DNA from: Fimbriimonadaceae bacterium
GTDB lineage: Bacteria; Armatimonadota; Fimbriimonadia; Fimbriimonadales; Fimbriimonadaceae
Reading direction: 5' to 3'
Length of the DNA: 64,000 nt
NCBI GenBank assembly: GCA_019454145.1
Contig: CP075366.1
Location: 2,583,564 to 2,647,563, forward strand
Under the pieces are notes generated by a model. It saw nothing but the letters and a program-made list of their open reading frames with translations. It was not told the DNA's origin and did not search any database. This document shows positions 49,387 to 54,570 of this stretch, piece by piece. Position 1 is the stretch's first letter. Each line of letters starts with the position of its first letter. The position numbers were made by a program, and so were the translations under genes.

Positions 49387-50109
49387 ATGAAATCAACTTT
49401 GACTCTTGGTGCCGTGCTGATCGCTGGCGCCTCTCAAGCTGGGATCATCACTCAGTGGGATTTTAACGGCACAAGCTCATCTACGGTTCCAGGAGGCGTA
49501 TCTAGCCCAACTGCCAGCATCGGTCTAGGCACCGCTTCTTTGCTTGGCGTCACAGGTAGCTTTTCTTCCGGTGTTGCAAACGGCGGATCAAGCGATCCTG
49601 TAACTACGTCACCACCAAACTTCGGTTGGCAAACCACTGGTTATGCAGCTCAAGGAACGGAAAATGGACAACGTGGTGTTCAGTTTGCGGTTTCCACTGT
49701 AGGTTTTGAAGACATCATGGTGAGCTTCGACGTTCGTAAGAGTAACACGTCTAGCCGATTCACCCGATTTGATTACTCGGCAAACGGTGGCACCACCTGG
49801 ACAGAAGGTGCTCTCCTGGATGGGAATGCAGGTGACACCTGGTTTAACCTTAACCTCAACGACCTTTCTGCTGATTCGGGCGTGGACAATAATGCGAACT
49901 TCGTGTTTCGCATGGTTGCTGTCTTTGATCCGAACATCGTCGTTGCTGGTCAATACTCAGCTTCAAACTCAAGCAGTTCATACGCAACAACTGGAACTCT
50001 GCGATGGGATATGGTGACCGTTTCGGGAACCGAAGCTGTGCCTGAACCAGCGACCATGGCGGTTTTAGCTGGTCTTGGCTTGGCAGCCGCTCGCCGACGC
50101 AAGAAGTAA
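49387..50109 (+). CDS. PEP-CTERM sorting domain protein
   Basis: A signal peptide (to about ASQA) starts a 240-residue secreted protein. The mature part begins with ITQWDFNGTSSSTVPGG and is Ser/Thr/Gly-rich and beta-structured, similar to surface proteins with a jelly-roll domain. The C-terminus has AVPEPATM, a hydrophobic helix and RRRKK, a PEP-CTERM signal for exosortase. A ribosome site CAGGAGAAG precedes the ATG. The inverted repeat ahead of it suggests control of translation or transcription. It is followed by a strong terminator. Confidence 0.87.
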   Translation: MKSTLTLGAVLIAGASQAGIITQWDFNGTSSSTVPGGVSSPTASIGLGTASLLGVTGSFSSGVANGGSSDPVTTSPPNFGWQTTGYAAQGTENGQRGVQFAVSTVGFEDIMVSFDVRKSNTSSRFTRFDYSANGGTTWTEGALLDGNAGDTWFNLNLNDLSADSGVDNNANFVFRMVAVFDPNIVVAGQYSASNSSSSYATTGTLRWDMVTVSGTEAVPEPATMAVLAGLGLAAARRRKK

Positions 50110-50137
50110 AGAGAATCAATTTAGAACTTTGAACTTT

Positions 50138-50164
50138 CCCCGGCAGCTTGCCGGGGATTTTTTT
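50138..50164 (+). terminator. Rho-independent terminator after the PEP-CTERM gene
   Basis: An 8-bp stem CCCCGGCA/TGCCGGGG with a 3-nt loop is followed by A and seven T residues. Confidence 0.9.
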
Positions 50165-50207
50165 GTCAGTCCCGATTAGAAATCAAGTTATTGACGATAC
50201 TTTCACC

Positions 50208-51314
50208 GTGTCTGAATTTCCGCTTCGCTACGAACTACTTGCGACTTGCCCTCATACCAGCGCGCGTCGAGGTCGAATTCATACGGCACACGGAACAGTG
50301 GAAACCCCTGCTTTTATGCCCGTTGGCACGCAGGGCAGTGTGAAAACTGTTGGAAGCGAAGACTTAGAAGCGGCGGGGTTCCAGCAAGTTCTTGCTAATA
50401 CGTATCACTTGTCTTTGCGACCAGGAGAAGACTTAGTCGAAAGGTTTGGTGGACTCCACGAATTGATGAGCTGGCGCGGGCCGATCTTAACCGATAGCGG
50501 CGGCTATCAAGTGATGAGTCTCAGCAAGTGGCGCAAGATCAGTGACGAAGGCGTAGTTTTCAAGAGTCACTTGGACGGGAGCGAATTGTTCCTTACGCCT
50601 GAAAAATCGATGGAAATCCAGAGCAAACTCGGCGTGGATATCGCTATGTGTTTGGATGAGTGCCCACCGTATCCTTGCACCCGCGAAGAAGCCGCCCGAG
50701 CAATGGAACGCACTCATAAGTGGCTGCCTCGAAACCTCGCCTCCAAAGGCGAAAAAACTAATCTATTTGGAATCGTGCAGGGAGGCGTTCATGAAGATTT
50801 ACGTAGAGAATCCGCTGAAACTGTGAGCAGCATGTCGTTTGATGGCGTTGCGATTGGGGGCGTCAGTGTAGGTGAACCAACGGAAATGCAGTATCCGGTT
50901 GTGGAATTCACTACACCTCTATTGCCGAAAGATAAGCCTCGTTACTTGATGGGAGTAGGTCATCCGCAAGATATCTTCCACGCTGTTAAATGTGGAGTTG
51001 ACCTATTTGATTGCGTTTTGCCAACTAGAATGGCCCGGCACCACGCTTTGTACACAATGCAAGGGCGTGTAAACGCGATGAATCTGCAGTGGGCGGAGCA
51101 CAAGGGGTGGTTCGATGAGGATTCGATTTTTCCGCCAACCGAGCGGTATTCCGCAGCTTATGTCAGGCATCTTTTCAAAGCTGAAGAACCGTTAGGTGCT
51201 CGTTTAGCGAGTTTGCATAACCTTTGGTTTTATTCGCGGATGATGCAAGAAATCCGAGATGCGATTGAGAAGGGCACTTGGCCCGAATTAATGGCCCGTT
51301 ACGCCCATGCGTAG
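50208..51314 (+). CDS. tgt: Queuine/preQ1 tRNA-ribosyltransferase family protein lacking the zinc-binding cysteines
   Basis: Tgt swaps the guanine at position 34 of GUN-anticodon tRNAs for a 7-deazaguanine. The substrate pocket motif is TDSGGYQVMSLS (Asp96), the expected nucleophile is Asp268 in LFDCVLPTR, and GVSVGEP and LGARLASLHN are family signatures. The usual CxCxxC zinc site before YxRAYLxHL is absent: residues 301-313 read WFDEDSIFPPTER and contain no Cys, although the later His of SLHN is kept. RNG after PTR is replaced by RHH. GTG 50208 is chosen because the frame upstream enters a terminator; GATACT lies 6 nt before it. Confidence 0.87.
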   Translation: MSEFPLRYELLATCPHTSARRGRIHTAHGTVETPAFMPVGTQGSVKTVGSEDLEAAGFQQVLANTYHLSLRPGEDLVERFGGLHELMSWRGPILTDSGGYQVMSLSKWRKISDEGVVFKSHLDGSELFLTPEKSMEIQSKLGVDIAMCLDECPPYPCTREEAARAMERTHKWLPRNLASKGEKTNLFGIVQGGVHEDLRRESAETVSSMSFDGVAIGGVSVGEPTEMQYPVVEFTTPLLPKDKPRYLMGVGHPQDIFHAVKCGVDLFDCVLPTRMARHHALYTMQGRVNAMNLQWAEHKGWFDEDSIFPPTERYSAAYVRHLFKAEEPLGARLASLHNLWFYSRMMQEIRDAIEKGTWPELMARYAHA

Positions 51315-51364
51315 CTAATTTGACTTACAGACCAAGTTCGCAAGCCGAGTACCATGAGGCGGTT

Positions 51365-51877
51365 ATGGGATTGCGAGATGTAACGCTGGGGAAAAATGCA
51401 CCTCAAGAAATAAATGTGATTATCGAAATCCCTCGGTTCAGCACAAATAAATATGAATACGATCCGGAAATGGACGTGATGAAGCTAGACCGCGTACTGT
51501 TTTCGCCTCTTTTCTACCCATGGGATTACGGCTTCCTACCTCGCACCACCTACCTCGATGGCGACCCCATCGACGCTCTTGTGTTGGTGAGCCACCCAAC
51601 GTATCCTGGCATCGTGGTCGAAGCTCAGCCAATCGGAGTTTTGGAAATGGTAGATGGTGGAATGCCGGACGAGAAGCTTCTTTGCGTTGCCAGCAAAGAT
51701 CCTCGATTCGGAAACCGCGAATCAATGTCTGATTTGCACCAACACACTCTGGACGAAATTTTCCACTTCTTTGAAGTGTATAAGCAGCTTGAACAAAAGA
51801 GTGTTGAAATCAAAGGCTGGAAAAAGCGCGAATACGCTTACGATATCATCGAGAAGTTCAAGCACGAAGGAGAGTAG
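51365..51877 (+). CDS. ppa: Inorganic pyrophosphatase, family I
   Basis: Soluble enzyme that hydrolyses PPi to 2 Pi with Mg2+. ATG 51365 gives 170 residues, the usual bacterial size. The metal-binding loop is DGDPIDALVL, preceded by the substrate region YPWDYGFLPRT and followed by KDPRF. The C-terminal WKKREYAYDIIEKF segment also fits. The upstream extension in the same frame overlaps tgt and is not conserved-looking. Confidence 0.93.
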   Translation: MGLRDVTLGKNAPQEINVIIEIPRFSTNKYEYDPEMDVMKLDRVLFSPLFYPWDYGFLPRTTYLDGDPIDALVLVSHPTYPGIVVEAQPIGVLEMVDGGMPDEKLLCVASKDPRFGNRESMSDLHQHTLDEIFHFFEVYKQLEQKSVEIKGWKKREYAYDIIEKFKHEGE

Positions 51878-51898: not shown

Positions 51899-53209
51899 GT
51901 GGTTGGATTCTCACGCTTTTCCGTTTTCTCCGTCCTATGTGTGTTAAGTCTTGGGTGCGAAGACGCTCAGGTCAAACCCGTGCCAAAAATCTCGATTGAA
52001 TCTGGTTTAGCGGTCGCGCCAGAACTCACATTCGCTCCGGTGGAAGGAGATTTAGATGCGCTTCCAAAAATCAGTACTTTGGTCAAGTCGAGCGGTGTAG
52101 TTTTGAATCCAATTATTCAAAAGCCCTCTAAGGATTGGGTGGCGGGTGATAAAGCCAACTTAGTAGCATCTGGTGAAGAATTTCTCTCCCAGATCGAGCC
52201 GATTATTGAAAAACGATGGCAGCTTCCTCCACCAAGTGCTGAAAATCTCAACTTTGTTGGCTACGTCGATATAAAAACTGCCTGCAAATATTTGGTTGCT
52301 TACGCAGATGCGGTTGATGAAGGAGGTAACCCCGAGTACGCAATCCGCGCTCTCAAGGCGAGCCGCAATTTAGCGAGCAGATTATATGAAAGCTCGACTT
52401 CGTTTGTCTCTCAGTTAGTGGGGAACGCGATTGATGCAATTGCCGAAAGAGCGATCCGACAGATCGTGATTCGAGGTTCGATGTCGAGCAAAGAACTTGC
52501 CCAGTTGCAACAGCCAGCCCTAACCATTGATCCTGCAAGGACTGGCCTTTCTCAAGCGATCCGCGGGGAATGGACTCTGTTTTTTGTTCCAACGATTGCA
52601 ACAACCGAATTCCCGCCACATGGCAACGAAATGACTGAGTTGTTTAGCCTTGATGACCATGATTTGACAGAGGAAATAAGGGGAAACAGCGAACCATTCA
52701 ACCGCCTAAAAACCATTGAAACATTTGCGCCGTATTTTCGGATTGCAATCAGTGAGCTGGAAGGGGACGGCATCAGCACGGAGCTTTCGCGGGCGAAGCT
52801 GGCAGAGATTTTGAATGGAGTGCCTACAGAAGAATCGGCGGTGCCGGCATGGGCAAAGAAGACCTCAAATGCGGTTGGGTTACTGATTGGTCAAGCTTCG
52901 TTGGGAGTCTGGGATTCAGCATTTGGCGCGGCAGTTAAGTGCGGGGTCAGCCGGGGTCTTACTGAAGTAGTTGTCGCCGCTCAACGCGGATTAGCCGAAA
53001 CGGGTTCTTTGCCGCGAGATATGGCGGAGCTTCGGAAATATGGTTTATCGGATTCAGTAAAGGATGCTTATTCGGGCAAAGATTTTCTCTACGACCCTGT
53101 TCGCGGTCTTGCATGGAGCGTCGGTCCAGATGGAAAAGATGACGGTGGCAAAGATCAAATTGAACGGTGGTCAAACGACACTAAAGATAGAGTTGTTAGA
53201 GTGAAATGA
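51899..53209 (+). CDS. Predicted lipoprotein with C-terminal WSVGPDGKDDGG motif
   Basis: A signal peptide with lipobox LSLGC places the acylated cysteine at residue 20. The mature protein (about 415 aa) is largely helical, with a long central domain. Its end reads SGKDFLYDPVRGLAWSVGPDGKDDGG, a motif I associate with pseudopilin-like and other surface proteins of Planctomycetes and relatives, where it may be a beta hairpin with an acidic, possibly calcium-binding loop. The stop overlaps the next ATG (ATGA). The next gene shares the layout, so these appear to be tandem paralogues. Function is unknown. Confidence 0.7.
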   Translation: MVGFSRFSVFSVLCVLSLGCEDAQVKPVPKISIESGLAVAPELTFAPVEGDLDALPKISTLVKSSGVVLNPIIQKPSKDWVAGDKANLVASGEEFLSQIEPIIEKRWQLPPPSAENLNFVGYVDIKTACKYLVAYADAVDEGGNPEYAIRALKASRNLASRLYESSTSFVSQLVGNAIDAIAERAIRQIVIRGSMSSKELAQLQQPALTIDPARTGLSQAIRGEWTLFFVPTIATTEFPPHGNEMTELFSLDDHDLTEEIRGNSEPFNRLKTIETFAPYFRIAISELEGDGISTELSRAKLAEILNGVPTEESAVPAWAKKTSNAVGLLIGQASLGVWDSAFGAAVKCGVSRGLTEVVVAAQRGLAETGSLPRDMAELRKYGLSDSVKDAYSGKDFLYDPVRGLAWSVGPDGKDDGGKDQIERWSNDTKDRVVRVK

Positions 53210-54570
53210 AGTTTGGCGTCGGAGTTCTAATTTTGGTTGGGTTAGGCATCGCAAGTTGCGACAGGCCAAGAAACGTCATTGTCCAGCCGGTGCCACATTC
53301 CGACATTCTTGCCCTTGCTCCTGATTTGAATTTAAACCAAAAACCAATCATGGGTGATAACGGATTAGAGGCCGTGATTTCTGACTTTGAGATTTTGCCT
53401 TATGAGGTTCGAGAGCCACAGAAAGTTCCTTTTGAAGAACTCACCGCGGGGCAAAAGAAAATTATTTATGATGAGTCCCTAGGTTTCTTGAAGTTATTTG
53501 AGAAGCACGAAAAATTGGAATGGGGTTTGCCAGTATACAAAAATTTGTACATGTCTTATCCACAGCTATCGAAGGCCAAAAATATAGGTAGATTATTAAA
53601 TCTGGCAAGCCAGGTGGCATTGCATCAAGGGGATAAAACTTTTTCCATTCGCCTACATCTTGCTTCTCGCAGACTTGCCGAGCGAATAGACGAAGCAACT
53701 AATGTCGGCATGGCCTTTCTAGTTGCTCGAGCAATATGTGCAAATAACGAGAGAATGCTTCAAAAATTGCTTGCCACCAACAAATATTCAAGTGCTGAAC
53801 TGAAGCAGCTTCTAGATGATTACAATCAAGATTCAACTCCAGTTGGGTTAGAACCAGGGTTAAAAGGCAACTGGATCAATGCGGCCGACTATATCGCTAC
53901 TATAAGATTTCCTCAAGATGCGGCTGACGTTGTCTTTGCTACTGAGGAAAAGGAGAAAGTCGAATTTCTTGAGGGGTTTAGAGGCAATAAAAAGCCGCTT
54001 GATCGCAATGCAACTGCTAAAGAACTGATAGAAGTGTATCGTGCTGCCATCAATGGTCAAGATCCGGAAAAAGCCGACGCTCTTGCCAGCGCCAGCACTT
54101 CGTACTTAGACAGGTTTCATGAATTTGATCAAGATGAATCTGGCGGAAAACTGGATTTGAAAGCTTTAAACGAATGGAAGCAAAAAACTCCCAATTCCTT
54201 CGGCAAATACCTGCTGAGCTTCGTGCTACCGGGAACCGTTAAGAACTATTTTGAGACTCGCACTAGCTTTGATATTGAACGTGATCTCAGCCGGGTGGCA
54301 ATAGCTTGCAAACTGTTCCAAATGCAAACTGGGAGCTATCCTCAGACTCTTAATCAACTGCGTAGCCTGAACATGAAAAGGGGCATAATTGATCGATTCA
54401 GTGGTAAACCATTTGGTTATGATCCTAAGCGGAAAATTATTTGGAGTGTAGGAAAGGATCGAGTAAACGATAACGGGCTGGATCGTACTTCGTCTTCAGG
54501 CTTTGGTCAAATTGCTGAAGGGGTTGCCCCTCCACCTCAAACTTACGATATTGTGGTGCATCTTCCGTGA
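53206..54570 (+). CDS. Predicted lipoprotein, paralogue of the preceding gene
   Basis: Lipobox GIASC gives an acylated Cys at residue 18. The C-terminus reads FSGKPFGYDPKRKIIWSVG then DRVNDNGLD, clearly the same motif as the preceding protein, and a helical domain with HLASRRLAERIDEA aligns with its ASRNLASRLYES segment. The overall identity looks low, so the duplication is old or the pair has diverged for different roles. Starts within the upstream stop and ends in GTGA at the dehydrogenase start. No known function. Confidence 0.7.
   Translation: MKFGVGVLILVGLGIASCDRPRNVIVQPVPHSDILALAPDLNLNQKPIMGDNGLEAVISDFEILPYEVREPQKVPFEELTAGQKKIIYDESLGFLKLFEKHEKLEWGLPVYKNLYMSYPQLSKAKNIGRLLNLASQVALHQGDKTFSIRLHLASRRLAERIDEATNVGMAFLVARAICANNERMLQKLLATNKYSSAELKQLLDDYNQDSTPVGLEPGLKGNWINAADYIATIRFPQDAADVVFATEEKEKVEFLEGFRGNKKPLDRNATAKELIEVYRAAINGQDPEKADALASASTSYLDRFHEFDQDESGGKLDLKALNEWKQKTPNSFGKYLLSFVLPGTVKNYFETRTSFDIERDLSRVAIACKLFQMQTGSYPQTLNQLRSLNMKRGIIDRFSGKPFGYDPKRKIIWSVGKDRVNDNGLDRTSSSGFGQIAEGVAPPPQTYDIVVHLP

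Follow-up and report, generated by a model that had tools for sequence, protein, structure and literature searches.

A tRNA-guanine transglycosylase without the zinc cysteines in Fimbriimonadaceae (Armatimonadota)

The tgt gene and its surroundings

The window (the whole stretch of DNA that was analysed, 64,000 nucleotides) is part of the complete, single-contig chromosome (2.76 Mb) of a bacterium placed in the Fimbriimonadaceae (Armatimonadota) by its nearest named relative, ACE_ARM7 (95% identity in the Tgt protein). At 50208-51314 on the forward strand it carries a tgt gene with a GTG start, encoding a protein of 368 amino acids. The first-pass annotation had placed the feature at 50496-51310, which lies within the gene but spans only its C-terminal two thirds. 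The longest ORF containing tgt, counted from the first TTG, is 50148-51314. Because this TTG sits within the intrinsic terminator upstream (stem 50137-50157), and because the matching stretch of the closest relative carries an in-frame TAG, translation probably begins at the GTG at 50208. The features discussed here, all on the forward strand, are the following.

50137-50166, +: intrinsic terminator of the upstream gene (9-pair stem and T run), overlapping the TTG
50208-51314, +: tgt, tRNA guanosine(34) transglycosylase without the zinc cysteines (TIGR00430, PF01702); the sole Tgt match in the genome
50493-50510, +: DSGGYQ, with Asp96 (Zymomonas mobilis Asp102) and Tyr100 (Tyr106) of the base pocket, from the alignment
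50661-50663, +: Cys152 (Z. mobilis Cys158), a preQ1-type residue, invariant
50856-50876, +: GGVSVGE pocket loop, in which the preQ1/queuine discriminator Val221 (Z. mobilis Val233) is kept, from the alignment
51009-51011, +: Asp268, the catalytic nucleophile (Z. mobilis Asp280), invariant
51021-51044, +: PTRMARHH loop, both Arg kept, RHH for RNG of E. coli, from the alignment
51108-51146, +: former zinc loop, residues 301-313, WFDEDSIFPPTER, with Ser306, Phe308 and Thr311 in place of three Cys ligands (model pLDDT about 95-97)
51216-51218, +: His337 (in SLHN), the sole zinc ligand kept, His in 55/55 clade sequences
51278-51877, +: family I inorganic pyrophosphatase (PF00719, 184 bits), the downstream neighbour; these are ORF limits, and translation probably starts inside them

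Immediately 5' of tgt, a secreted protein with a PEP-CTERM anchor is encoded at 49387-50109. Two neighbouring ORFs of like size and layout, each with a WSVG-D-D-G stretch near the C-terminus, occupy 51899-54570 and are probably tandem paralogues; the first of them had no Pfam or NCBIfam match. An Rfam search of the window matched one tRNA-Ser only, so that neither a preQ1 riboswitch nor another RNA was found near tgt. A phage origin of the gene was rejected, as phage records give only matches below 60% identity and several of these records look like bacterial contigs.

Family membership and queuosine pathway

The protein scores 452.4 bits with the bacterial Tgt model TIGR00430 (curated cut-off 306.75) and 482 bits with PF01702 (cut-off 26.3), whereas the archaeal arcTGT model TIGR00432 gives 148.3 bits against a cut-off of 350. 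The profile of the DNA-guanine transglycosylase DpdA (NF041059) showed no match at E 0.001, and on the DpdA side there was only a weak match to PDB 7ui4 (E 2e-4). The genome was also searched for an additional Tgt of the normal kind, and there is none. The equivalents of Z. mobilis Asp102, Asp156, Gln203, Gly230, Glu235 and Asp280 are all invariant in the alignment. Asp96 is present in 42/42 clade sequences, 8/8 from related families and 55/55 others, and among the catalytic and pocket residues checked the only variation within the clade is at Tyr100, where Tyr or Phe occurs. The pocket is of the preQ1 type by the two residues used to recognise it, Cys158 and Val233 (PMC3660597, PMC11570991), which correspond to Cys152 and Val221; a role in preQ1 affinity has been described for Cys158 of Z. 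mobilis (PMC3660597).

The genome also encodes QueA, QueC, QueF-II and QueG, all above curated cut-offs, together with a PTPS-family protein and a QueE-like radical SAM protein that overlaps queC and is matched by several models, all below their cut-offs. The question raised earlier, whether queE, queC and queF exist in this genome, can thus be answered in the affirmative, with that reservation for the QueE-like protein. A missing queuosine (Q) pathway is ruled out by these matches, and the pathway appears complete as far as tested. All four GUN tRNAs (Asn, Asp, His and Tyr) have U33-G34-U35. In a reduced genome of the same family (1.5 Mb), strong matches to QueC and QueF were absent and Tgt, QueA and QueG were kept, which suggests preQ1 salvage there.

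The one feature of the family that the protein lacks is the structural zinc site of three Cys and one His: none of the three Cys is present, and the His is kept. This site or subdomain is regarded as a hallmark of Tgt in structural work (PMC6165067). We do not consider it to be required for membership, because the Tgt of Sinorhizobium meliloti, with its genetic role in the Q pathway, is also without it, and because the Fimbriimonadaceae protein nests within Tgt in the tree. By ancestry, profile, residues and context the protein is a Tgt, that is, a variant without the zinc site rather than a protein of new function.

Extent of the loss in Armatimonadota and Alphaproteobacteria

In the alignment, S306-I-F308-P-P-T311 stands where other Tgts carry C-x-C-x-x-C. 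The first reading from the letters, that residues 301-313 contain no cysteine and that Asp268, DSGGYQ and the SLHN histidine are nevertheless kept, was borne out, with its numbering exact for the GTG start, and the whole clade is alike. The clade alignment comprised 42 sequences, the query and 41 relatives, drawn from its own family and one sister family: none of the 42 carries more than one of the three Cys, and the zinc site is absent from all 41 relatives. When all distinct sequences of the Fimbriimonadaceae and the sister family are taken, 55 of 55 are without CxCxxC. The replacement loop has a motif of its own, D-x-x-S-[VI]-F-P-x-x-x-R-Y-S-A-A-Y, with Ser at the first Cys position in 96% of the clade and Phe at the second in 98%, neither of which occurs at these positions in any of the 88 sequences that keep the site.

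The three other families of the order that were sampled keep CxCxxC, and of the Tgts read from elsewhere in the phylum all but two carry three cysteines and the histidine. In these two (L145 and L156, from different families), the cysteines are displaced to C-x-x-x-C-C (CPEWCC and CDAWCC), which may perhaps be a rearranged zinc site. In two trees, the second of which was built without the zinc columns, the 55 zinc-less sequences form one branch nested among relatives that keep the cysteines (SH-aLRT 99 and 100). The site was therefore lost once in Fimbriimonadales and then inherited. A tree placing the protein within a group where such loss is already common and characterised had been named as a refutation; this applies by half, as the loss is indeed universal in the clade, but no paper characterising it was found.

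Four armatimonadotal sequences from two other families represent a second, divergent Tgt paralogue, with GGWPL for GGLxVGE, loss of Glu235 and some 15 inserted residues following PTRDAR. CxCxxC and the nucleophile Asp are present in this paralogue, which may have another substrate; with the Tgt equivalog model it reaches 277 and 306.7 bits, no higher than the cut-off of 306.75.

Among the fetched sequences from outside Armatimonadota, ten Tgts of alphaproteobacterial type have lost ligands, and QueA is present in nine of the ten genomes that hold them. The zinc site is missing in all 60 Hyphomicrobiales genomes read: none has the first or third Cys, 54 still have the middle one, 57 lack the His, and every catalytic residue is kept. 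The named record of S. meliloti Tgt has S, C, T and N at the four ligand positions, which are occupied by C, C, C and H in the Tgts of Paracoccus and E. coli; a third group, in the main Rhodospirillaceae, shows V/I, C, S and H. (One record labelled as S. meliloti pSymB, CP090106.1, is 3.7 Mb long and contains tgt and coaD; it looks like a mislabelled chromosome.) The tree requires four changes, one of which is a small and uncertain placement of two sequences, and so a cautious count from these sequences would be at least three independent losses. In short, the loss of the zinc site is real, clade-wide and recurrent.

Genetic work bears on one of these lineages. Mutants of S. meliloti in tgt have a queuosine-pathway phenotype, and preQ1 rescues queC and queF mutants, not tgt (PMC3568095). 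In E. coli, the Tgt of Bartonella henselae, another member of the Hyphomicrobiales, forms Q-tRNA from preQ1 (PMC11570991), which would speak for the function of zinc-less Tgts if this protein, too, lacks the site. For the Fimbriimonadales Tgt we infer both the absence of metal and the enzyme activity, and the support for function comes from a different lineage with different replacements.

Function without the structural zinc

The protein is very probably a functional G34/preQ1 Tgt in which a packed, metal-free loop has replaced the structural zinc. A zinc-free Tgt had been one of the readings offered at first, and it is the best one: three of four ligands are lost throughout the clade, and a like loss is seen in lineages that include a genetically functional tgt. 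The enzyme would be a homodimeric TIM barrel that binds the Asp, Asn, His and Tyr tRNAs and performs the standard double-displacement base exchange, in which Asp268 would attack C1' of G34, guanine would leave, and preQ1 would take its place, with Asp96 serving as general acid/base. Queuosine would then be finished by QueA and QueG. In other Tgts the zinc ties the C-terminal subdomain to the barrel. The ancestor common to the Fimbriimonadaceae and the sister family lost this site, and a loop that is presumably metal-free took over, with Phe308 probably packed where the zinc and Cys320 (Z. mobilis numbering) sat; this hydrophobic packing probably holds the former zinc subdomain. Because the same site has been lost independently in rhizobia and their relatives, the structural zinc of Tgt is probably dispensable.

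The AlphaFold2 model (52 sequences) has a mean pLDDT of 92 and superposes on Z. mobilis Tgt 1pud over its whole length (Z 52.6, rmsd 1.5 A, 364 residues, 46% identity), which indicates a sequence compatible with the Tgt fold and is no proof of metal-free stability, as AlphaFold2 would give the family fold regardless of stability without zinc. A model of the Methyloligella Tgt, which has yet another set of replacements, gave Z 55.2 and rmsd 1.0 A. The residues named as dimer hot spots of Tgt (PMC5395182) are mostly kept, namely Tyr330, His333 and an aromatic residue at 326 (Z. mobilis numbering).

That the loss is a zinc-sparing adaptation of the lineage is unlikely. It is fixed in the whole family and recurs in other lineages, as such an adaptation might be; however, the Cys4 motif (C...CEHCDSC) is intact in QueC from this genome, so that not every part of the pathway is free of zinc, and neutral loss of a dispensable site fits the data equally well. 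There is still less to be expected of a metal, zinc or other, bound through His337 and non-cysteine ligands. The invariance of His337 in all 55 sequences leaves room for an unusual metal site, and acidic residues are nearby, but the loop has no Asp, Glu, His or Cys that is both invariant in the clade and peculiar to it and so might substitute for the lost ligands, Asp303 is conserved equally in zinc-bearing Tgts, and the Hyphomicrobiales (57/60) lose even the His. A more speculative proposal, to which we give a very small chance, is that the site was shed at least three times in bacteria by different routes and that the SxFP loop of Fimbriimonadales does more than stand in for the metal: it would alter the dimer or the docking surface for tRNA, with the result that the enzyme takes additional UGU-containing RNAs as substrates or can do without the classical dimer.

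It is slightly less probable again that the changed loops reflect another base or tRNA specificity (queuine, preQ0 or another RNA), which had been the other reading suggested at first. What speaks for it are RHH in the substrate loop and two departures of the pocket loop from the family norm, Leu231 to Val and Ala232 to Ser (Z. mobilis numbering). Both of the latter are, however, shared by 8/8 sampled relatives that keep the zinc cysteines, GGVSVGE or GGLSVGE is frequent in other Armatimonadota, and Z. mobilis Tgt(Ala232Ser) was assayed with guanine and preQ1 and not taken further (PMC3660597). RHH is present as described, but it is a minor distinguishing feature: its first His (E. coli has PTRNARNG) is also found in the same 8/8 relatives and in many Hyphomicrobiales Tgts, and its second is H in 34/42 clade members and N, R, Q, A or K in the rest. 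As the residues that set preQ1 or queuine preference (Val233, Cys158) are retained and zinc-keeping relatives share the other pocket changes, a change of specificity is unlikely; the catalytic residues, both Arg of the PTR loop, the Q genes and the four GUN tRNAs are likewise all in place. A sequencing or assembly error, or a decaying gene, can practically be dismissed, since dozens of independent assemblies, single-contig chromosomes among them, have the same state, and dN/dS against the nearest relative is 0.03, which means that tgt is under strong purifying selection.

The ligand cysteines of E. coli Tgt are reportedly important for activity, and if so, their repeated natural loss is the more notable. 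In the open literature we found no description of bacterial Tgts without zinc ligands, an earlier subscription-only account being possible, and no paper on Q in Fimbriimonadaceae. Natural Tgts that are zinc-less and otherwise intact offer a direct way to find out whether the zinc serves folding, the dimer or tRNA binding. They are also possible metal-free scaffolds for tRNA-guanine exchange tools, and they are a warning for annotation, the CxCxxC motif being unsuitable as a criterion for Tgt.

Compared with known systems, the Fimbriimonadaceae protein has the superfamily fold in common with archaeal arcTGT and DpdA and is without their extra C-terminal domains. With the Tgts of Z. mobilis and E. 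coli it shares the fold, the catalytic Asp pair, the preQ1 pocket and Tyr330/His333, and it differs from them in Leu231 to Val, RHH for RNG and Phe92 to Leu; in place of Cys318, Cys320 and Cys323 of Z. mobilis it has the SxF motif of the clade, the His being kept. The nearest zinc-site-bearing relatives, the Tgts of the other sampled families of the order (55-61% identical), resemble the zinc-less clade in their GGVSVGE-type pocket and in the RH of the PTR loop. The Hyphomicrobiales Tgts, as those of Fimbriimonadales, have lost the zinc site and kept the catalytic residues; however, theirs is an independent loss with other replacements, a mirror image of that in Armatimonadota, as most of them retain the middle Cys and lack the His.
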